NCBI GenBank assembly: GCA_944324665.1
Contig: CALUXD010000002.1
Coordinates: 124,001 to 188,000, forward strand
Source: Candidatus Proelusimicrobium volucris
Lineage (GTDB): Bacteria; Elusimicrobiota; Elusimicrobia; Elusimicrobiales; Elusimicrobiaceae
DNA: 64,000 nt
Reading direction: 5' to 3'
The notes under the pieces: model-generated
Databases searched by the model: none
Seen by the model: the letters and a program-made list of their open reading frames with translations, nothing else
Told to the model about the DNA's origin: nothing
Made by a program: the position numbers and the translations under genes
Part shown: positions 3,242-64,000 of the stretch, in pieces
Layout of the letters: every line of letters starts with the position of its first letter
Position numbering within the stretch: the first letter of the stretch is position 1

Positions 3242-4009
3242 TTATATTTCTATATCAATGCCTACGGGCGCATGGTCCGAGCCGGGCACGTCACTTAGTA
3301 TATAAGCATTTTTTATAAGTTTTGAGGCCTTCTCGTCAACCATAAAATAATCCAGCCGCCAGCCCACGTTTCTGCTTCTGGCGGAAGTTTTATAGTCCCA
3401 CCAGGTGTACTGCTTGCCTTGAGTGTTGAACATTCTGAAGGTATCCACCAAGCCCTCGCTGAAGAACTTATCAAGCCAAGCGCGTTCCTGCGGAAGGAAG
3501 CCCGTAGTCTTTTGGTTTTCTTTGGGGTGTTCCAAATCTATTTCTTTATGCGCGGTATTGACGTCCCCGCAAGTTATGACGTATTTCTTTTTTGAAAGTT
3601 CTTTGCACATTTCTAAAAATGCCGCATAGAAGCGCAGTTTGTACTCGACTCTGTGTTCGCCTTGCCCCCCGTTGGGAAAGTAGACTGTTAGGAAGTAGAA
3701 ATTTTCGTATTCCAAACACAGCATTCTGCCTTCCGCGTCGAACTCCTCACTGCCCAGGGAAGTTGATACCGACAGCGGTTTTTCTTTGGTGTAAACGCCA
3801 ACGCCGCTGTATCCTTTGCGCTGAGGTACGGAAAAGTAGGAGTGATATCCCGGAATATTTTTTAATTCCTCGGATAATTGTTCCGGCCAGGCTTTTGTTT
3901 CCTGCAGGCCGATTATATCGGGGTTGGCTTTTAACAGCCAATCCTTAAAACCCTTCTTTTCCACGGCTCTCAGGCCGTTTACGTTCCATGAAAGGAAAAT
4001 TCTCTTCAT
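3242..4009 (-). CDS. xth: Exodeoxyribonuclease III / AP endonuclease
   Basis: A 255-residue enzyme of the ExoIII/APE1 family, which incises DNA at abasic sites in base-excision repair and has 3'-5' exonuclease activity. All family blocks are visible: the metal-binding SWNVNGLRA start, the catalytic IIGLQETKA, GYSGVGVYTK, the active-site CGDVNTAH (Asp and Asn), the DNA-contacting YTWWDYKTSARSRNVGWRLD block, and the C-terminal GSDHAPV with catalytic Asp-His. The length is typical. It is transcribed divergently from metK with only 33 bases between the two starts, so their promoters must overlap. The Cys-rich protein gene follows after 12 bases and may be cotranscribed. Cytoplasmic. Confidence 0.96.
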   Translation of the reverse strand: MKRIFLSWNVNGLRAVEKKGFKDWLLKANPDIIGLQETKAWPEQLSEELKNIPGYHSYFSVPQRKGYSGVGVYTKEKPLSVSTSLGSEEFDAEGRMLCLEYENFYFLTVYFPNGGQGEHRVEYKLRFYAAFLEMCKELSKKKYVITCGDVNTAHKEIDLEHPKENQKTTGFLPQERAWLDKFFSEGLVDTFRMFNTQGKQYTWWDYKTSARSRNVGWRLDYFMVDEKASKLIKNAYILSDVPGSDHAPVGIDIEI

Positions 4010-4042
4010 AATTGATATAATATCATTTTAAGGACAATAATT

Positions 4043-5203
4043 ATGAGAAAAGGCAGATATTTTTTAACTTCCGAATCCGTTTCGGAAGGGCATCCCGATA
4101 AGGTGTGCGATCAGATTTCCGACGGAGTTCTTGACGCCATATTGGCTAAAGATAAGACGGCTCGCGTCGCTTGCGAAACTTATATAACAAGAGGATTGGT
4201 TGTTGTCGGAGGAGAGATTACCACCTCCACCTGGGTCGACGTAGACAAAATAGCGCGCGACACCATAAAGAATATCGGATACACCGATGCAAAATATGGT
4301 TTTAACTATGAGACTTGTTCCGTAGTAAACGTTATAGGCAAGCAATCGCCCGATATCAGCCAGGGCGTAAACGTTGGCGGTGCCGGCGACCAGGGGTTTA
4401 TGGTTGGATATGCTTGCAGGGAAACAAAGGAATATATGCCGCTTCCGCTCCAGCTGGCGCACGAGATTTTGATTAAACTTGCCGATATGAGGAAGAGCGG
4501 CGAGCTCTCTTACGTCGGGCCAGATTCAAAATCGCAGGTGACGGTGGAGTATAAAGACGGCGTCGCGCAGAGAATAGATACCGTCGTTCTTTCCACCCAG
4601 CATACGGAAGATATTTTGGATAAAACCGGCAAGAAAATTACCGAAGAGTCCAAAAAAGAATTGATAGAAAAAGTGATAAAACCCGTAATAGGCAAATGGG
4701 CCGACGACAAAACCAAATATCTTATCAATCCTACCGGCAAATTTGTAATAGGCGGACCGCAGAGCGATACAGGTATGACGGGCCGCAAGATTATAGTTGA
4801 TACTTATGGCGGGCGTACTGCCCACGGCGGCGGCGCGTTCAGCGGTAAGGATCCCACAAAAGTGGATAGATCGGCGGCATACTTGGCCAGATATATAGCC
4901 AAGAATGTCGTAGCTTCTGGCCTGGCGGAGGAGTGCGAAGTCCAAATAGCTTACGCGATAGGCAAGGCCGAACCGGTGGGTTTTTATTTGGATACTTTAG
5001 GTACAGGCAAAGTGCCGGACGATAAACTTACGGCAATATGCAAAAAGGTGTTTAAGATGACGCCGCGCGCGATAATAGAGCAGTTTAAACTGCAGAGGCC
5101 TATATATCAAAAGACGGCTTCATACGGGCATTTTGGGCGTAGTATCTTCCCTTGGGAGAAAACCGACAAAGCAAAAGAAATAGCCGCACTGGCCAATAGG
5201 TAA
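4043..5203 (+). CDS. metK: S-adenosylmethionine synthase
   Basis: A 386-residue enzyme making S-adenosylmethionine from ATP and methionine, the cell's main methyl donor. Visible signatures are [18 protein letters not shown] at the N terminus (ATP and metal binding), the hexapeptide-like GAGDQG, and [19 protein letters not shown] (phosphate loop). The three-domain length is normal. An AAGGA sequence precedes the ATG. A strong hairpin terminator directly follows the stop, so the gene is probably monocistronic. With only 33 bases upstream before divergent xth, there is no room for a SAM riboswitch leader. Confidence 0.98.
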
Positions 5204-10253: not shown

Positions 10254-11114
10254 ATGTTTCACATAAAAAGGAAATTGCCGATTATTATTATAACGGTTAT
10301 GCTTTGTGTGTTTATCGGCTCTACAAATGTGAAGGCGTATGAAACGTTTTTAACTCCTGGCAGCGGGGGGACGATAACCGATGTCGGAACGGTGGTGGAC
10401 GGTGGAATGGTCTCTACTGTAAATTGCAATTCCGTCGGTGCGATTCAATATCGCGCAAATAGTGATTGCGGGACTTCGCAGAGGACGTGCTGCGCAAATA
10501 AACTGTGGTCTGGTTGGGATAAGGAGTGTACTTGCCAAAAAGACGGTGAAGAATGCGACCGTTGGCAAATATACGCTAGTTTTGACGCCGAAAATTGCAA
10601 ATGCGTATGCCCCGAGGGCGCCATAGAGGTTAACGGCGTTTGCGAGTGTGACGAAGCCAATGGCTATAAACTAGGCGATCACGAATGTGTAAAAGATGAT
10701 ACTCCCTCATGTCCCGCAGACGAATGTTGGAACGGTTCGGCATGCGAGGCTAAAGGCTCTACGAGTATGTCTTGCGTTGGTTCTGTACAGTTGACGACAA
10801 GCGGGACTTTAACCAGAACGGCTATCTGCCATGAGGGAAGCGGTTGGTCTTATGGGGGATGGAAAGGAACATGTAGATGTCCCAACGGCTATACGTGGGT
10901 AGGAAGCGGGTTGAGCGGATATTGCGATAAAGAAGAGTCTTGGGTTTGGTCTTGTGACCACGGTTCAATAGTGTCCACTGACGGTTGTAAGATTTATGGC
11001 GGGGAAAATCCTCTCAGGGGATATCCATGCAGCAGTAAGGGTGCTACTGCGACAGCTTATGAAGATATAGGCGCTGGACAGTGTGAAAAAGCCTATTGTG
11101 TATGTGGAGGATAA
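10254..11114 (+). CDS. Secreted cysteine-rich protein A (three-member family of this window)
   Basis: A 286-residue protein with a clear Sec signal peptide (basic start, hydrophobic 9-22, cleavage near VKA-Y). The mature part is extremely rich in Cys, Gly and Trp. Residues about 65-92 hold the family module: [QK]-Y-x4-[DT]-C-G-T, four residues, then C-C-x4-W-S-G-[WC]-[DN]-[KQ]-x-C. Residues 113-130 look like short EGF-like or 'NGxCxC' units, and 158-164 hold CWNGSAC, also present in protein C. No LPxTG, lipobox or barrel is seen, so it should be secreted or held at the surface by disulfide-bonded partners. I recognise no named family. It has its own promoter and terminator, hence a single-gene unit. 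Function is unknown. Confidence 0.85.
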   Translation: MFHIKRKLPIIIITVMLCVFIGSTNVKAYETFLTPGSGGTITDVGTVVDGGMVSTVNCNSVGAIQYRANSDCGTSQRTCCANKLWSGWDKECTCQKDGEECDRWQIYASFDAENCKCVCPEGAIEVNGVCECDEANGYKLGDHECVKDDTPSCPADECWNGSACEAKGSTSMSCVGSVQLTTSGTLTRTAICHEGSGWSYGGWKGTCRCPNGYTWVGSGLSGYCDKEESWVWSCDHGSIVSTDGCKIYGGENPLRGYPCSSKGATATAYEDIGAGQCEKAYCVCGG

Positions 11115-11214: not shown

Positions 11215-11245
11215 GCCCCGCCGATTTGTCGGCGGGGTTTTTTAT
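11215..11245. terminator. Terminator of Cys-rich gene A
   Basis: CCCCGCCG/CGGCGGGG stem with a 6-base loop and a T run. The same stem, with a similar AAC(T/C)G lead, ends Cys-rich gene B. Confidence 0.92.
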
Positions 11246-16131: not shown

Positions 16132-17205
16132 ATGGCCATAGGACTTACCACTTTGCTTAAAACGGTAGTAGACAATAAAGCCAGCGGCTTGCATATAAGG
16201 GGGAACTCTAATGCTTATGTTCGCATAAACACGAAGATAAGGGAGATAGAGGACTGTTTCTTGACCAATGACGACGTTAAGAAAATCGCCGCTGCGATAA
16301 TGGGCGAACGCGAAAAAAAGATGTTCGACCAGAACTTGAGCGTAGACTTCGCGCTCGACGCTAAAGAATACGGCCGTTTTAGGTTTAACGTATTTAGGCA
16401 ATCGGGCAAAATATGTATGGCCATAAGGCATATACCGTTAAGGATACCCTCGTTTGAACAGCTTAATCTGCCCGGCGAAACGCTTAAGAAAATAGCCGAT
16501 AACCACCGCGGCATAGTGTTGGTAACGGGTATGACGGGTTCGGGCAAATCTTCTACTTTGGCCGCGATGATAGACCATATAAATAAGACTCGTTCCTGCC
16601 ATATCCTTACGGTGGAAGACCCTATCGAATTTGTGCATACCGATCAGCGCAGCATAGTCAGCCAGCTTTCTTTGGGTACGGATACGCTTTCTTATTCATC
16701 CGCACTCAGATACGCCATGAGGCAAGATCCTAACGTAATCATGTTGGGCGAAATGCGCGACGCGGAAGTTATCCGTTCGGCCATAGCGGCGGCGGAAATG
16801 GGGCAGCTGGTGCTTTCCACTCTGCACACGATTAACGCGGTGCAGACGATATCCAGGGTAATAGAATCCTTCCCGCCCGAGCATCAGGGGCAGGTGCGCT
16901 TTCAGCTGGCGGACCTTTTAAGGGGTGTGATATCGCAAAGGCTTCTGCCGAGAATAGGCGGCGGATTGGTACCCGCAATAGAGATAATGTTACCTACGGC
17001 TCAGATAAAAAAGTGTATACTGGAAAATAAAATCTCCGATATATATAAGGCTATATCTTCCGGCGAGTATTACGGCATGCAAACATTTGACGATTCTTTG
17101 GTAAGGCTTCACAGGGAAGGCAAGTGCAAACTTGAAGACGTTTTGGACTTCTCTACAAATCCGGACGGCATTATGCTCGCGCTTAGAGGCTTGGACAATA
17201 GATGA
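16132..17205 (+). CDS. pilT: Type IV pilus retraction ATPase PilT
   Basis: A 357-residue hexameric ATPase of the secretion-ATPase superfamily that drives pilus depolymerisation for twitching and DNA uptake. It shows the Walker A GMTGSGKSSTLAA, the Asp box (VEDPIEF), the Walker B VIMLGEMRDAEVIRSA, and the His box MGQLVLSTLHT. An AIRSAIAAAE-like helix and the length agree with PilT rather than the longer PilB. A Shine-Dalgarno AGGAGGGAAAG overlaps the ftsZ end. It overlaps cmk by four bases. No pilin genes are next to it, so the pilus itself is encoded elsewhere. The placement between ftsZ and cmk is unusual. Confidence 0.95.
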   Translation: MAIGLTTLLKTVVDNKASGLHIRGNSNAYVRINTKIREIEDCFLTNDDVKKIAAAIMGEREKKMFDQNLSVDFALDAKEYGRFRFNVFRQSGKICMAIRHIPLRIPSFEQLNLPGETLKKIADNHRGIVLVTGMTGSGKSSTLAAMIDHINKTRSCHILTVEDPIEFVHTDQRSIVSQLSLGTDTLSYSSALRYAMRQDPNVIMLGEMRDAEVIRSAIAAAEMGQLVLSTLHTINAVQTISRVIESFPPEHQGQVRFQLADLLRGVISQRLLPRIGGGLVPAIEIMLPTAQIKKCILENKISDIYKAISSGEYYGMQTFDDSLVRLHREGKCKLEDVLDFSTNPDGIMLALRGLDNR

Positions 17206-19919: not shown

Positions 19920-20855
19920 ATGTACGCCGGCTTTTGGAAAAGGTTTTTTGCTTTTATAATAGATTGGGCCATATTATTTGCCTTGATGTTATTGCTTTAT
20001 ATTGCGCTAGGTATTTTTACATTTTATCTGACTGATTGGCAGAGTGATACTGGTATAAATTCAATAAATGTTCTAACAGCGCTTTTTTACTTAAGTTCCT
20101 TCGCTGTTCCTATTCTTTATTGGAGCTTTTTTGAAGCATCGTCTTATCAGGCTACGCCCGGCAAAATGGCGCTTGGCATAAAGGTCTGCGACGAGAACGG
20201 AAATCCGCTGAAGTTTACGCAGTCGTTGGGGCGTAATCTGGGTAAGATAATTTCAAATTTAACTTTTTATATCGGTTATGTGATGGCGGGTTTTACGGTC
20301 AAGCGTCAGGCACTGCACGATAAAATGTCGGGCTGTTTGGTTATTGATAAAACGGCGAATATTGATGATTTACGGCCTTTCCCCAAAGCGTCGCTATGGA
20401 AGATAGCGGCGGCGGTATTTGCGGCGCTGTTGCCGTTCTTTTTGTTGTTTGCGCTAATAACGGCATTAATAGTTTTTCTTTCTTTCTCATATGTAAAATC
20501 TTTTATGGATTTTAATAATGCGATGCAAAATCTAAGTATGATAAAACGAATGCAGACTTCCTACAAACTGGAAAATGGCGCCTATGCCGACAGGGTAGGA
20601 GATTTGTTTTCTGCAGGAAACGAGGCGGTAAAAGCGGAAAGTTCAGGGAAGGAAGACTTTTCTTTCTCACATGACGGAGATTTTTCTTATAAGTTGGTTT
20701 CAGGTGGAGTTGCGGCAGAATATAAAAGGGTACCGCATTATTATTTAACGTTGTGTTATGATGCCGAAAAAAAATGTCTGAGCGATGATTTGGAAAAATT
20801 AAAAGATAGAGATATTGTCATAGCGTCCCCAGAGGAATGCTGTGTCGAAAAATAG
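19920..20855 (+). CDS. RDD-family membrane protein with pilin-like C-terminal domain (1)
   Basis: A 311-residue protein. Residues 1-145 are an RDD domain: the start MYAGFWKRFFAFIIDW, two transmembrane helices, the ATPGKMALGIKV motif and the HDKMSGCLV end. A third hydrophobic segment (about 155-190) leads to an extracytoplasmic C-terminal domain. That domain begins with a helix (NLSMIKRMQTSYKLENGAYA) and then a beta region, resembling the globular part of type IV pilin or pseudopilin proteins. It has four cysteines: LTLCY..KKC and a terminal P-E-E-C-C. The next gene is a paralogue with the same organisation and cysteine spacing. AGGGGT precedes the ATG, and a TATAAT (19882-19887) lies upstream. 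The RDD domain's function is unknown; the fusion is unusual. Confidence 0.8.
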   Translation: MYAGFWKRFFAFIIDWAILFALMLLLYIALGIFTFYLTDWQSDTGINSINVLTALFYLSSFAVPILYWSFFEASSYQATPGKMALGIKVCDENGNPLKFTQSLGRNLGKIISNLTFYIGYVMAGFTVKRQALHDKMSGCLVIDKTANIDDLRPFPKASLWKIAAAVFAALLPFFLLFALITALIVFLSFSYVKSFMDFNNAMQNLSMIKRMQTSYKLENGAYADRVGDLFSAGNEAVKAESSGKEDFSFSHDGDFSYKLVSGGVAAEYKRVPHYYLTLCYDAEKKCLSDDLEKLKDRDIVIASPEECCVEK

Positions 20856-20868
20856 GAGGAATAAAAAT

Positions 20869-21897
20869 ATGTATGCAGGGTTCTGGAAAAGGCTTGCCGC
20901 CTTTATAATAGACAACATAATAGCCTATGTGCTTTTGATGATTGTAATGGCTTTTATAGGGTATAGCGATAAGCTGTCCAATCCCGCTACGGTAGTATCG
21001 GCGGTTTTGGTTATGACGGCATGCTCGATGCTGATTTATGCTTTATATTGGGCCTTGTTTGAGAGTTCTTCTCTGCAGGCTACGCCGGGCAAAATGGCGC
21101 TGGGTATAAAAGTAACGGATATGAATGGCAACAGGATTTCTTTTGGCCGTGCGCTTGGGCGTAATTTGGGTAAAATAATATCCGGATTTACGCTTAATAT
21201 AGGCTATGTTATGGCGGGTTTTACCGTAAGAAAGCAAGCCTTACATGATAAAATGGCCGATTGCTTGGTAATAGACAAAAACGCAGATACTCAGAATTTA
21301 CAGCCTTTGCCTAAGGCAAGCGGCACATTGGTGTTTTTTGCCATATTAGGCGCGCTTAGTCCGTTTATTATTTATATTGTTGCGATGAGCTTTATGTTTA
21401 TGGCGTTCTTTAAGATGGCTGGTATTCCGTCAATCCCGACAAGTGGAGCTTCGCTATCGGAAAGGGGCGGCTATGCCGATGTACTTGAATCTTCTGAAGA
21501 AGAAAATACATCTGAAGAGGCCTATTTATTGGAGGAGGAAGACGACTTGAATAATGCGGAAATCCTTAAAGTTAAAATGATGGGCAATCTGCTTCTTGTT
21601 ATTGCGAAAATTCAAGAAATGTATGCCGAGCAAAATAACGGGCAATACGCCAAAACTTTTGAGGAACTAAAAGAAAATATGCCGGAATTTCCGGAACAAT
21701 CCTACGAAGTTGTCAATTACAAATTGGCTTTGGGGGAGAACTATATTACGGCCTCAGCCGAGGAAAAAGACGGTGTTCCCGCCCATACTCTTACCCGCTG
21801 TTACGCCAAAGACAGGACTTGTATATATGCGCATGTTTTTTCTTTTGTTAAGGAAGTAGATTTGCCATATTCTCAACCCGAAATGTGCTGTTTATAG
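20869..21897 (+). CDS. RDD-family membrane protein with pilin-like C-terminal domain (2)
   Basis: A 342-residue paralogue of the preceding gene. I set the start at the ATG at 20869 because it aligns with the neighbour's MYAGFWKR start and follows AGGAGG; the longer frame begins inside the previous gene. The RDD domain covers about 1-145 (ATPGKMALGIKV, HDKMADCLV). A third hydrophobic segment and a Glu/Ser-rich acidic linker (about 205-230, SSEEENTSEEA) follow. The pilin-like domain has the helix LVIAKIQEMYAEQNNGQYA and cysteines in LTRCYAKDRTC and P-E-M-C-C, the same spacing as in the first copy. The pair arose by tandem duplication with an insertion of the acidic linker. A strong terminator follows. 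Confidence 0.8.
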   Translation: MYAGFWKRLAAFIIDNIIAYVLLMIVMAFIGYSDKLSNPATVVSAVLVMTACSMLIYALYWALFESSSLQATPGKMALGIKVTDMNGNRISFGRALGRNLGKIISGFTLNIGYVMAGFTVRKQALHDKMADCLVIDKNADTQNLQPLPKASGTLVFFAILGALSPFIIYIVAMSFMFMAFFKMAGIPSIPTSGASLSERGGYADVLESSEEENTSEEAYLLEEEDDLNNAEILKVKMMGNLLLVIAKIQEMYAEQNNGQYAKTFEELKENMPEFPEQSYEVVNYKLALGENYITASAEEKDGVPAHTLTRCYAKDRTCIYAHVFSFVKEVDLPYSQPEMCCL

Positions 21898-21949: not shown

Positions 21950-22172
21950 TATGTTGTAAAATCTCTGATAAAGCGGAAGATATGTATTATCGTGCAGTAT
22001 AAGTAGGGGTAAAATTTACTTATTTAATCTAGGCTTGGCGAACAGGGGGATTTCTAAACTTCTACTTTTAGGGAGGAACTTAAAAAGATTGCATTTGCCT
22101 GCCTGCGAAGTTGGCGTTTTATTAACATAATCAAAGTAGTACGTCTAAGTAAACCCAAAAAGCAGAAACAGC

Positions 22173-22201
22173 TTGACTGTTTTTTTTTTTTTTGATAAAT
22201 T
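22173..22201 (+). promoter_or_regulatory. Promoter of Cys-rich gene B with 14-T homopolymer spacer
   Basis: TTGACT (22173-22178) followed by G, 14 consecutive T (22180-22193), GA and TAAATT (22196-22201). With TAAATT as -10 the spacer is 17 bases, the optimum. GATAAA at 22194 is the alternative -10, with a 15-base spacer. A homopolymer in the spacer changes promoter strength whenever its length slips, as known for porA of Neisseria meningitidis (poly-G). The same element with 13 T precedes Cys-rich gene C. Confidence 0.75.
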
Positions 22202-22294: not shown

Positions 22295-23263
22295 ATGTCA
22301 AAAAATTGCGGATTGAAATTATTGCTTTCAGCACTTTTTCTAGCAGTCTCTCTTCCAGTTTGTTCGCAAGTGTTAAAACTGTGTACGCCAGGTACTAAAC
22401 AGTATAAACCGAAAGGCGACTGTGGGACCAGCGTCAGTACTTGTTGCGATAGCGGAATATGGAGCGGATGGGATAAGAGCTGTGGTTATTTTTGGAGTTG
22501 CCGACAAGTCCCTAAAAGTTATTGCAGAGGGACGACGGGCGGTCTTCCGGCTACGGTTAGCGGTTCTTTGCAAGGGAAAAGCTGCAGTGAATATGGCAAA
22601 GAGGGTTTTTCCAGCGGAACGACAAATGGCGATGGAATGCTTATAGACGGAAGCAACAGTGCTTGCTATCAATGCGCCTGCGGATATATGCCGACAAGTC
22701 CCGCATGCAACTGCTCAGGTACGGCCAGCGGAAGTTGTACAGCATATATAAACGGTGCAGCTTATGTAGGAACAAGAAAATGCGTGGCTTCGTGTCTTTG
22801 GGATGATTGCTATTCTATAAGTAACCCCGAAGGACAATATTGTGGTTTGACACCAGGTAAGACATATCAATGCACTCCGGCGGCATATCCGGAACACGGC
22901 GGTTATCAAGTATGCGAAAGCGCTTACGACGAACCCGGACAGCTGAAAATAAGCGCTTGTATAGCTTGCGGAGCCAACCAGTGCCTAGCTAAAAGCGGTG
23001 GACTTGGATCTGACGCAAGATACTACTGTGTATCCAAACCGACTAGCGGATCTGACACTAAAGGAAAATATAATTGTACGGCTGCCACTTGTCGTAATGC
23101 GGGTATGACTACATCTCCGTGGACTTGCACGGCCAAAACATATACGTCGTGCTATAGCGGGTATACTTTGAGCGGCGGGAATTGTGTTTCCAACAGCGGA
23201 GGAGGCGGTGGTTCGACAATAATAAAGCCAATAGACCCTAGCCTGCCTTCTTTGAAACTATAA
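22295..23263 (+). CDS. Secreted cysteine-rich protein B
   Basis: A 322-residue protein. I use the ATG at 22295, preceded by GGAGGAGG and followed by a normal signal peptide (KLLLSALFLAVSLPVCS-Q); an earlier in-frame start at 22211 would place untypical residues before it and lies too close to the promoter. The family module is at residues 36-63, with C-G-T, C-C and W-S-G-W at the same spacing as in proteins A and C. The rest contains about 30 further cysteines in CxC and CxxC pairs, with Gly, Ser, Thr and Tyr, and no regular repeat. A Gly-Gly-Gly-Gly-Ser tail leads to a short C-terminal IIKPIDPSLPSLKL segment. No membrane anchor is seen. Expression is probably phase-variable (poly-T promoter). 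Function unknown. Confidence 0.85.
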   Translation: MSKNCGLKLLLSALFLAVSLPVCSQVLKLCTPGTKQYKPKGDCGTSVSTCCDSGIWSGWDKSCGYFWSCRQVPKSYCRGTTGGLPATVSGSLQGKSCSEYGKEGFSSGTTNGDGMLIDGSNSACYQCACGYMPTSPACNCSGTASGSCTAYINGAAYVGTRKCVASCLWDDCYSISNPEGQYCGLTPGKTYQCTPAAYPEHGGYQVCESAYDEPGQLKISACIACGANQCLAKSGGLGSDARYYCVSKPTSGSDTKGKYNCTAATCRNAGMTTSPWTCTAKTYTSCYSGYTLSGGNCVSNSGGGGGSTIIKPIDPSLPSLKL

Positions 23264-23315
23264 ATTGCCGTATAGGAATCTTTTTGAAGGGGATACATTC
23301 CTCTCCAACTAACCG

Positions 23316-23344
23316 CCCCGCCGCGCAGACGGCGGGGTTTTTGT
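23316..23344. terminator. Terminator of Cys-rich gene B
   Basis: CCCCGCCG/CGGCGGGG stem with a 6-base loop and TTTTT, nearly the same as the terminator of gene A. Confidence 0.92.
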
Positions 23345-25009
23345 CGTATGAAAACAAGACTTAATAATATATAAACAGCCGTACAGGTCAATGCCTATAT
23401 TGACTGGACTAAAGAGCTGCGTTTATCTTTTCGCTTAACATAGTATCGTTTTTTAAGGGGATATCTCAAATATTTTTATATTCTACTCTAAAAATATCCG
23501 CCTTAATAAGAGAGTATTTTTTATGTCGGAGGGGAAGAATAAAAAATTGTTTTTTGTGCGCTACCTGAAGATATAAGAATTATTTGCCAAAAGAAAAATG
23601 GAAAATATAATCCGCTTTGGATAATTTACACACGGATTTAAAGCCTTGCCAAGTATAAAACACAAAATCCCAAAATTTTGATACACAGAACTGAAAAGTA
23701 AAAAACAACCATTTGCTTTGCCTAATATTGTTAGAAACAGCTTATTTTCGCCAAAAATGAGCTATAAACGCTTTTTGTGCTTTTAGGTATAAAGAGTACC
23801 CAAAAAGATTTAAAAACGAAGTGGGTTTCCTTTAATTTATTATTAAATTACGCAAAGAAAGCATTTAAAAGATCTGCAATAAACATTTTGATCTGCAATC
23901 TCGCTAAAATAATATCCCGATGTCCTTCTATAAATCCAATTATAGCCAATTAGTTTTTCTAAATGTAGAATTAAATTTCTTCTATAAATAGCAAGTCGTT
24001 ATTATTTTTTTAAATGAAAAGAGATATCAGAATGTCTGCAAAATAAAAATGATAGTAATTATTTCTGTTTTATATTTATATTGTAGAATATAAATAATTC
24101 TATAATTAATGAGGCGCATAAATTCTATAATTTGTTTTAATTATAAAATATATTTTATTCTACAAACTTTGATATCTAGTGTTAAATAAGACTATTTTTT
24201 ATATTTTTATAGAATTAAAAAATGTCTATAATGATAAAGTATATAAACAAAGAGTTGTTTTTTTGTATGTTTCTTGTTGAAGGTATTTTTAAATTCTATA
24301 ATATGTTAAAAATTTGGATATATAATAATTCTATAATCTAAAAATATTTATATTTTTATCTTTATTCTTTTATGGAATTGAATAAGTTCTATAATATTTA
24401 ATAATTTGTAGTATTTTTTTTATTCAATAATAAAGGATATTTGTTATAATTATTCTTAAGGAAGAACTAAAACATTGAGTAAATTACTAATATTGACATT
24501 TGGAAGTTTGGCTGGGTTTAGACTTTTTTAGGTGTTTTTCAGTATTTAGATGTTTTTAAGCTAGGCAAATCACTAGGGAAGCTAATATTGAACAAAAGAG
24601 TAAAATTAAGAGGGATATTATCTTTTTTACTAAAAGATTTTATATTTATTAGTACGCATTGTATCAATAATTAGGTCAATTCCGGAGATGGATTGCTTGG
24701 CTTTTATGGTGGCATAATATTTTCATATTGTAATATACGGAGTAATATTAGCTAATTTTCCGCATTGGTTTTGGGGAGATAAAATCAACTGAGATATGCA
24801 TCAAATAAAGAGTTGGGTTCTATTGCTGGAATAGGGACAAATTGAGCTTGCGCCGGCGCTGATTATCCCATTTATAATGAGTGTTCTTATTGCTTTGATA
24901 TCGCTTAAAAAGGGCTTTTTTATTTGATACAATTCTTCTAGCCTGTTATTTTGTTTGTTTTAGGCTAATATATTTATATGGATTTATAATATTTGGAAAG
25001 AGGGTTTTT
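23345..25009. other. 1.7 kb very AT-rich region without convincing genes
   Basis: No frame of gene quality occurs on either strand, and base composition is clearly more AT-rich than the surrounding genes. From about 24098 to 24395 it holds a cluster of TTCTATAAT motifs (listed separately). TTGACA occurs at 24494-24499 without a good -10. A short GC-richer stretch near 24840-24905 reads as A-C-A-G-A-D-Y-P-I-Y-N-E-C-S-Y-C between stops and may be a gene relic. It follows a Cys-rich gene and could be decayed family DNA or a foreign insertion. Confidence 0.5.
24098..24395 (+). repeat. Cluster of TTCTATAAT motifs
   Basis: Exact TTCTATAAT at 24098, 24123, 24294, 24329 and 24387. One-base or two-base variants lie at 24158 (TTCTACAAA) and 24224 (GTCTATAAT), with a reverse copy TTATAGAAT at 24207. 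Spacing is irregular (25 to 70 bases). In such AT-rich DNA some recurrence is expected, but five exact 9-mers in 300 bases is striking. Confidence 0.5.
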
Positions 25010-25513
25010 ATGAATATAAAGGTATTGGAAGGGGACATAACGCTTTTGAAGGTAGACGCGATAGTAAACGCAGCGAACAGCAGTTTGCTTGGCGGCGGTG
25101 GGGTAGACGGCGCTATTCACAAGGCTGCGGGGCCTAGACTATTGGAGAAATGCAAAACTTTGGGTGGCTGTAAAGCCGGTGAGGCTAAGATTACCAGGGG
25201 TTACGATTTGCCCGCCGCCTTTATTATTCATACCGTCGGGCCGATGTGGCATGGCGGAGCCAGCGGCGAGGAAGATACTTTAAAAAGATGTTATGAGAAC
25301 AGCTTAAAACTTGCTGAGGAGAACGGTTTAAAGAGTATCGCTTTCCCGTGTATATCAACTGGGGCCTACCATTTCCCGGCAGAGAAGGCGGCCCAAATCG
25401 CTTTTGATGCCGCAAAGGAATTTCTTAAGGACAAAGCTGATTTTACGGTTTATTTCGTCTGTTATAACGGGGCGGACTATAAGCTCTACAAGAAACTTGA
25501 AGCCGCTTTATAA
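25010..25513 (+). CDS. Macro-domain protein, O-acetyl-ADP-ribose deacetylase type
   Basis: A 167-residue single macro domain that binds ADP-ribose and, in this subfamily (YmdB-like), hydrolyses O-acetyl-ADP-ribose or removes mono-ADP-ribose. Signatures: GDIT near the start, [23 protein letters not shown] (the catalytic Asn-Asp-containing loop), HTVGPMW, and the phosphate-binding [14 protein letters not shown]. Length and blocks match the family throughout. GAGGG precedes the ATG. The hypoxanthine-DNA glycosylase-like gene follows after 3 bases, so the two are cotranscribed. Confidence 0.95.
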
Positions 25514-63373: not shown

Positions 63374-63401
63374 TTGACTGTTTTTTTTTTTTTGATAAAT
63401 T
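63374..63401 (+). promoter_or_regulatory. Promoter of Cys-rich gene C with 13-T homopolymer spacer
   Basis: TTGACT (63374-63379), G, 13 T (63381-63393), GA and TAAATT (63396-63401), spacer 16. The block from GCTTGACTG to GATAAATTT is identical to that of gene B except for one fewer T. Confidence 0.75.
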
Positions 63402-63494: not shown

Positions 63495-64000
63495 ATGCCG
63501 AAAAACAAAATGGTTAGAAGGGAGTTTTTTAACAAAATCTTATTTTTGTCAGTTTTATTTACTGTTGTTTGTGCAAGCAATATATTTGCGGCGGTGGCAT
63601 CATGTTCTGGAATTACGGACGGCCAGACAAGATATGGCACAATAAACGGAAAATGCTGGGCATATTATTGCAGTGACGGTTCAATAAGGCAGCTGGGCAG
63701 TGTAGATTCATCTAAATGCGCCAGCTGCAACGGAGTGAAATATGCTCCTTTGGGCACTTGCGGAACCTGTAAATATGAATGTTGCAGCGATGGAAGCTGG
63801 AGCGGATGCAACCAAGCGTGCCCGGATCCTTCAGATTGTTCCGGCGATACCTGTTGGAACGGTTCAAGCTGTGTTTCTAAGCCGACCGGCAGCAAGTATT
63901 GGGGCAAATACAATGTTTTTTATAACGGCACTTGCTATTATACTTGCGATTCTTGGGTTTGCAATAAAGGTAGCGGATGGTCGTGTACCAGTAAGACTCC
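63495..64000 (+). CDS. Secreted cysteine-rich protein C, N-terminal part, runs off window
   Basis: Read directly from the sequence: the ATG at 63495, preceded by AGGAG, opens a frame of at least 168 codons to the window edge. A signal peptide (FFNKILFLSVLFTVVCASNIFA, cut near residue 32-33) precedes a Cys-rich chain. The family module sits at residues 82-109 (K-Y-x4-T-C-G-T, four residues, C-C-x4-W-S-G-C-N-Q-x-C) with exactly the spacing of proteins A and B. CWNGSSC at 120-126 repeats a block of protein A. After this comes a Tyr/Cys-rich stretch. The 3' end is not in the window. Function is unknown; promoter architecture suggests phase-variable expression. Confidence 0.85.
   Translation, partial: MPKNKMVRREFFNKILFLSVLFTVVCASNIFAAVASCSGITDGQTRYGTINGKCWAYYCSDGSIRQLGSVDSSKCASCNGVKYAPLGTCGTCKYECCSDGSWSGCNQACPDPSDCSGDTCWNGSSCVSKPTGSKYWGKYNVFYNGTCYYTCDSWVCNKGSGWSCTSKT

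Follow-up and report, generated by a model that had tools for sequence, protein, structure and literature searches.

Cysteine-rich module proteins of gut Elusimicrobiota: a shared poly-T promoter with type IV pilin genes and evidence for exchange of tails

Slippage-driven changes in the length of a T-tract tune the transcription of the adhesin gene sabA in Helicobacter pylori, and other genes of this organism carry tracts placed as at sabA (PMC4081817). Vibrio cholerae secretes TcpF with the help of a type IV pilus, and TcpF and CofJ alike are non-pilin secreted proteins of type IVb pili whose expression is linked to the pilus and which are brought to the surface (PMC9565799). CdiA and Rhs (e.g. 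PMC6336857) combine a constant head with a C-terminus that is exchanged past a conserved junction, and with an orphan tail downstream, and the thrombospondin type 1 repeat and fibronectin type I are short, Cys/Trp-rich extracellular beta units. The family of Cys-rich proteins described here resembles each of these systems in part. In our preferred reading, to which we assign a probability of roughly 0.6, its members would be exported proteins of the cell surface which are co-regulated with the pili and probably function as adhesins, their tails being exchangeable and their expression tuned by slippage.

Three family genes, starting at 10254, 22295 and 63495, carry the module pattern in the window, i.e. 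the whole stretch of 64,000 nucleotides of Candidatus Proelusimicrobium volucris that was analysed. Their products are referred to as proteins A, B and C:

10254..11114, + strand, module gene for protein A, 286 residues, 9% Cys, without a poly-T promoter
10446..10529, + strand, module copy 1, 28 residues (E 1.3e-7 to the copy at 22400)
22295..23263, + strand, module gene for protein B, 322 residues, with a signal-like segment, the module and a Cys-rich tail
22400..22483, + strand, module copy 2, 28 residues (segment and profile searches)
63495..64000, + strand, module gene for protein C, 279 residues when complete; the gene leaves the window
63738..63821, + strand, module copy 3, 28 residues (segment and profile searches)

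Translation of 22400-22483 yields QYKPKGDCGTSVSTCCDSGIWSGWDKSC in the frame opening at ATG 22295, which has a good ribosome-binding site upstream, so that the position given in the preliminary description is correct. The 28-residue pattern which it reported for proteins A, B and C could be reproduced as written, together with the motif C-W-N-G-S-[AS]-C common to the products of the 10254 and 63495 genes. The invariant spacing that it claimed holds for the three window copies and is lost family-wide, where several paralogs exhibit insertions of 2 to 10 residues, located ahead of the first C-G-T or in the interval from CC to WS. The unit conserved throughout the family comprises about 35 residues (C-x3-4-G-x3-Y-x3-G-x-C-x-T-x2-R-x-C-C-x2-G-x-W-S-x-W-x3-C) and begins about 7 residues before the 28-residue pattern, with an extra Cys (C-x3-4-G-x3-Y...). 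A single 33-residue segment found 13 places in its own genome of 1,496,100 bases, with E values of 1.3e-7 and 1.9e-7 for the two leading places besides its own, and 15 copies were retrieved from the same genome by a profile built on 12 copies (best E 3.2e-18). The recurrence of the module in the genome is far beyond chance.

Pfam and NCBIfam scans of nine module proteins gave nothing above noise, in line with the earlier statement that no described domain with this pattern was known to its author; a PHROGs scan of the module proteins returned no meaningful match, and PDB sequences compared with the module and repeat profiles gave weak chance-level rows only. Among 100 relatives, copies were located in G007 (23), G017 (34), G011 (4) and G004 (3), mostly within the same genus, and genus g6 contributed three single weak matches with E above 0.001, which are doubtful. 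At E 1e-5 the module occurs in 5 of 340 Elusimicrobiota genomes and in 1 of 100 genera. The profile search of the phylum which the preliminary description had proposed hence places the module in five species of one genus with a consistent context, and neither an existing domain nor a lone genome without context accounts for it. At least 12 species of the same genus lack the module and its distribution is therefore patchy. These limits derive from the searches of the 100 relatives and the 340 genomes; when 84,980 species were scanned, with the GTQTR repeat motif of the tails (see below) as query, matches came only from Elusimicrobiota records or from uncultured records matching them. Open-access papers yielded nothing about these proteins, nor about phase variation in the phylum, and the family is previously undescribed. 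A viral origin was rejected, the poly-T promoter pattern having matched none of 2.9 million viral contigs.

The preliminary description had further suggested comparing predicted structures for a common fold. AlphaFold2 gave beta-rich models, with pLDDT 88.7 and pTM 0.50 for the module plus repeat and pLDDT 81.9 for the module alone (strands 9-14, 18-24 and 30-33), and searches of PDB folds with either model yielded no significant match. The top Foldseek rows were fibronectin type I pairs (E 0.17, TM 0.24, not significant; E 1.6 for the module alone), and a search of PDB sequences listed a TSP1 protein at a non-significant E of 5. The module is thus similar to the thrombospondin type 1 repeat and fibronectin type I in being short, rich in Cys and Trp and predicted as beta, a weak and non-significant resemblance, whereas the order of its cysteines is different and a Pfam match is absent; the TSP1 signature was found neither in the module proteins nor in the repeat-bearing prepilins.

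Family proteins consist of about 150-350 residues, about 10% of them Cys, in the order signal-peptide-like start, variable stretch, module and tail. Signal peptides had been assigned to A, B and C, and by eye signal-peptide-like N-terminal segments are indeed visible in all three. One kind of tail bears the repeat KPxTxxxC...GTQTRTVTCNTSTGEWxxGSWGTC, a second opens with CWNGSxC, and further tails are unrelated. In several members the GTQTRTVTC repeat follows the module; homology between the two, suspected by eye, was not supported by a profile comparison, which gave a probability of 0.3%. As judged from the alignments, the module closes off the constant head in a new, exported-looking Cys-rich family.

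Many module genes have in common an upstream element with the consensus TTGACTG-T(10-14)-GATAAATTT. This poly-T promoter was missed in the preliminary description, as were the terminator, the exchange of tails at the module end and the connection with type IV pilins. The promoter features in the window are:

22139..22144, + strand, GTACGT box, preceding TTGACT by 34 bp (same place, -34/-35, at 8 of 11 promoters)
22173..22199, + strand, promoter-like element TTGACTG-T14-GATAAA upstream of the 22295 gene (pattern search)
22180..22193, + strand, T14 homopolymer in the promoter spacer
63374..63399, + strand, promoter-like element TTGACTG-T13-GATAAA upstream of the 63495 gene (pattern search)

The genome contains 11 exact copies of the promoter, with 0 for the reversed-pattern control, and all 10 T-runs of at least 11 residues in the genome lie inside it, the eleventh site being a T10. 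Downstream of these sites are seven module genes, three genes for type IV prepilins and one for a Cys-rich protein whose module is degenerate; at least seven module genes, including the 10254 gene, are without a recognisable poly-T promoter. Relatives from two genera of the family were found to carry the element as well, and 98 distinct sites in several genomes are distributed over prepilins (49), module genes (41), other Cys-rich proteins (5) and other genes or contig ends (3). Which side is expanded depends on the genome (modules/pilins 17/2 in G017, 15/2 in G007 and 2/17 in G011), and the sites of genus g6 precede 24 pilins and no modules. In G011, contigs C9, C11, C15 and C16 bear poly-T promoters in tandem, about 620 bp apart, before successive pilin genes, and many contigs of this genome start or stop at the element, so that repeats were probably collapsed during assembly.

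With respect to the hexamers TTGACT and GATAAA we infer a working promoter, the activity of which would depend on the length of the tract. Our guess for the -10 region is either GATAAA (14-bp spacer) or TAAATT (16 bp), at a total length of 26. As at sabA, the T-tract is located next to core promoter elements. The sabA tract, however, lies upstream of or beside the -35 region, whereas here the tract fills the gap between TTGACT and GATAAA, and unlike sabA the element, whose activity is predicted, is common to a whole regulon with up to 36 copies per genome.

In this genome, three pilin promoters contain T14, T10 and T12, while their flanks differ by only 1-2 mismatches in 57 positions upstream and by 0 in 156 downstream. 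Near-identical flanks around tracts of such different lengths point to slippage, i.e. slipped-strand mispairing. At these three paralogous promoters tract length thus varies faster than the flanks. Tracts of orthologs in G000 and G007 are unequal in several cases as well, measuring T13 and T14 for gene E, and T12 and T13 for gene G. All these differences are between paralogs or species, as opposed to within one clone. Some of these differences may be homopolymer assembly errors. In all genomes most elements have a total length of 25-27 in spite of varying first spacer bases (G, CG, CA or TG), the number of T compensating for them, and this constancy suggests selection on spacing. It would suit a poly-T tract that is a fixed promoter architecture, acting via DNA curvature or an UP-like contact with an optimum near 26, in which case the proteins would merely be co-expressed with the pilins. 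We consider this unlikely, though the strongest of the alternatives, as near-identical pilin promoters vary by up to 4 T and adjoining near-identical genes of genus g6 (L086) by 2 T, a pure homopolymer would be unnecessary for a fixed optimum, and the rest of the genome is devoid of long T-runs, which suggests that they are probably costly and yet are kept here. The two adjoining secreted-protein genes at L086 (genome G053) bear the GTQTR repeat and promoters with T12 and T10; their C-termini differ, giving a constant head and a variable tail without the module.

Slippage-tuned expression of exported surface proteins, the reading which we prefer, would further involve the type IV pili. This genome has 17 prepilins, and the GTQTR repeat recurs in tandem on giant prepilins, whose Cys-rich repeats are related to those of the module proteins. 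One Cys-rich prepilin gene is followed, 172 bp on, by a module gene, and a PilT-like ATPase (16132-17205) lies between two module genes of the window. Type IV pilins (Pfam N_methyl) share with the module genes the promoter and, at that one locus, the neighbourhood. Unlike pilins, the module proteins exhibit signal-peptide-like N-termini without an N_methyl/GFxxxE match: none of nine module proteins matched N_methyl or TIGR02532, whereas the neighbouring pilins do match. One prepilin of 2,290 residues (L172, G000:C2:262300-270000) contains 164 Cys and long tandem Cys repeats; its kin from G007, G017 and further Elusimicrobiota are longer than 1,100 residues over the stretches read.

An attachment of the module proteins to the pilus is suggested by predicted co-regulation and by shared repeats. 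The likeness to TcpF and CofJ is an analogy in the way of working and not one of sequence similarity, and those proteins occur singly per pilus operon, whereas here a large paralog family has exchangeable tails. Each family gene would represent a cassette composed of the poly-T promoter, a signal peptide, a short variable region, the module of about 35 residues, an exchangeable Cys-rich tail and often a terminator, and one promoter type would drive module genes as well as type IV pilin genes. The proteins would then act at the cell surface together with type IV pili, most likely either as secreted adhesins or as pilus-associated binding proteins; their export route, pilus contact and adhesin function are predictions. 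The module would perform a constant job, such as folding, export or docking, and the tail would provide the binding specificity. Variation could arise in two layers: a T-tract that slips, lying as it does between TTGACT (-35-like) and the -10-like region, would alter the expression of individual genes, and tails would be swapped when cassettes recombine. A more far-reaching version, in which the slippage-prone promoter governs pilins and module proteins as a genome-wide contingency regulon, with a random subset expressed per cell and tails renewed by recombination, strikes us as a serious candidate with slightly less than an even chance. If slippage does operate, pilins and secreted proteins would form a contingency system beyond the well-known pathogens. 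The family offers a first functional handle on many unannotated Cys-rich genes of gut Elusimicrobiota, the poly-T promoter is a readable mark by which the entire surface regulon can be located in each such genome, and the surface diversification of a small-genome gut bacterium becomes testable.

The exchange of tails was followed in full detail for one ortholog pair. Gene J of G000 (L173:3883-4515, module at 3976-4092) and its ortholog in G007 share 90% DNA identity over a stretch that starts ahead of the promoter and reaches base 4094 (2 bp past the module), beyond which homology ends and returns at 4577 with 95% identity. The 3' part of the present tail of J (4168-4555) is 84% identical to that of the neighbouring gene P (2156-2548), a gene which is frameshifted near 2207, and a headless open reading frame downstream of J (4563-5000) corresponds to the tail that is still fused to the module in G007. 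The break of homology at the module end and the headless old tail indicate that the tail was replaced at this point, leaving a fossil downstream, and in this pair the alignments document one such replacement. In addition, a survey of mosaics in which 64 proteins were compared by halves revealed close heads with unlike tails (94% over 69 residues versus 27% for J and its G007 ortholog; 82% versus no match for L150 and L153 of G017) as well as close tails with unlike heads (64% over 84 residues versus 37% for L013 of G000 and L041 of G017). At the level of these alignments the mosaics run both ways.

Ordinary recombination among repeats also yields head/tail mosaics, and the proteins might be structural blocks of the envelope or of a pilus sheath, Cys-rich and possibly metal-binding, whose diversity reflects neutral drift and duplication. 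Such a role would agree with a Cys content of about 10% in a genome in which DsbA, VKOR and Thioredoxin_4 were not recognised. Diversification, however, agrees better with the break of homology at the module end, with the repeated pairs that have a constant N-terminal and a different C-terminal part, with a lineage-specific expansion of modules that is traded against that of pilins, and with the dedicated promoter and terminator; we therefore regard purely structural blocks as improbable. Less probable still is a role as effectors or toxins, rather than adhesins, that are secreted and exchange their C-terminal domains in the manner of polymorphic toxins. The constant N-terminal part, variable C-terminus and displaced orphan tail recall CdiA and Rhs, but the tails are small, Cys-rich and repeat-like, without a Pfam match or a recognised toxin domain, each gene has its own promoter and terminator, and no immunity-gene pattern was seen among open reading frames of at least 90 residues at the loci read. 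How proteins with 10% Cys mature in a genome lacking recognised DsbA, VKOR or Thioredoxin_4 is a question which the surface proteins of our preferred reading raise as well.

The family genes are frequently followed by a terminator hairpin of the form GCCCCGCCG-loop-CGGCGGGG-TTTT, which occurs only twice in the window, behind the 10254 and 22295 genes:

11215..11241, + strand, family-type terminator after the copy-1 gene
23315..23341, + strand, family-type terminator after the copy-2 gene

It is found behind 9 of 13 family genes, for eight of them within about 100 bp, the ninth lacking the first G; for gene J it lies 540 bp further on, past the orphan tail. The three pilin loci do not have the family terminator, and the degenerate-module gene possesses both the poly-T promoter and the terminator. 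A common promoter and a common terminator would serve as recombination arms between cassettes. In the intergenic region which extends from 23341 to 25010, positions 24000-24420 are AT-rich with repeated ATTCTATAAT-like words and no clear gene. Two adjoining RDD-family membrane proteins are encoded at 19920-21897 of the window, and by eye their C-terminal parts resemble globular domains of pilins.
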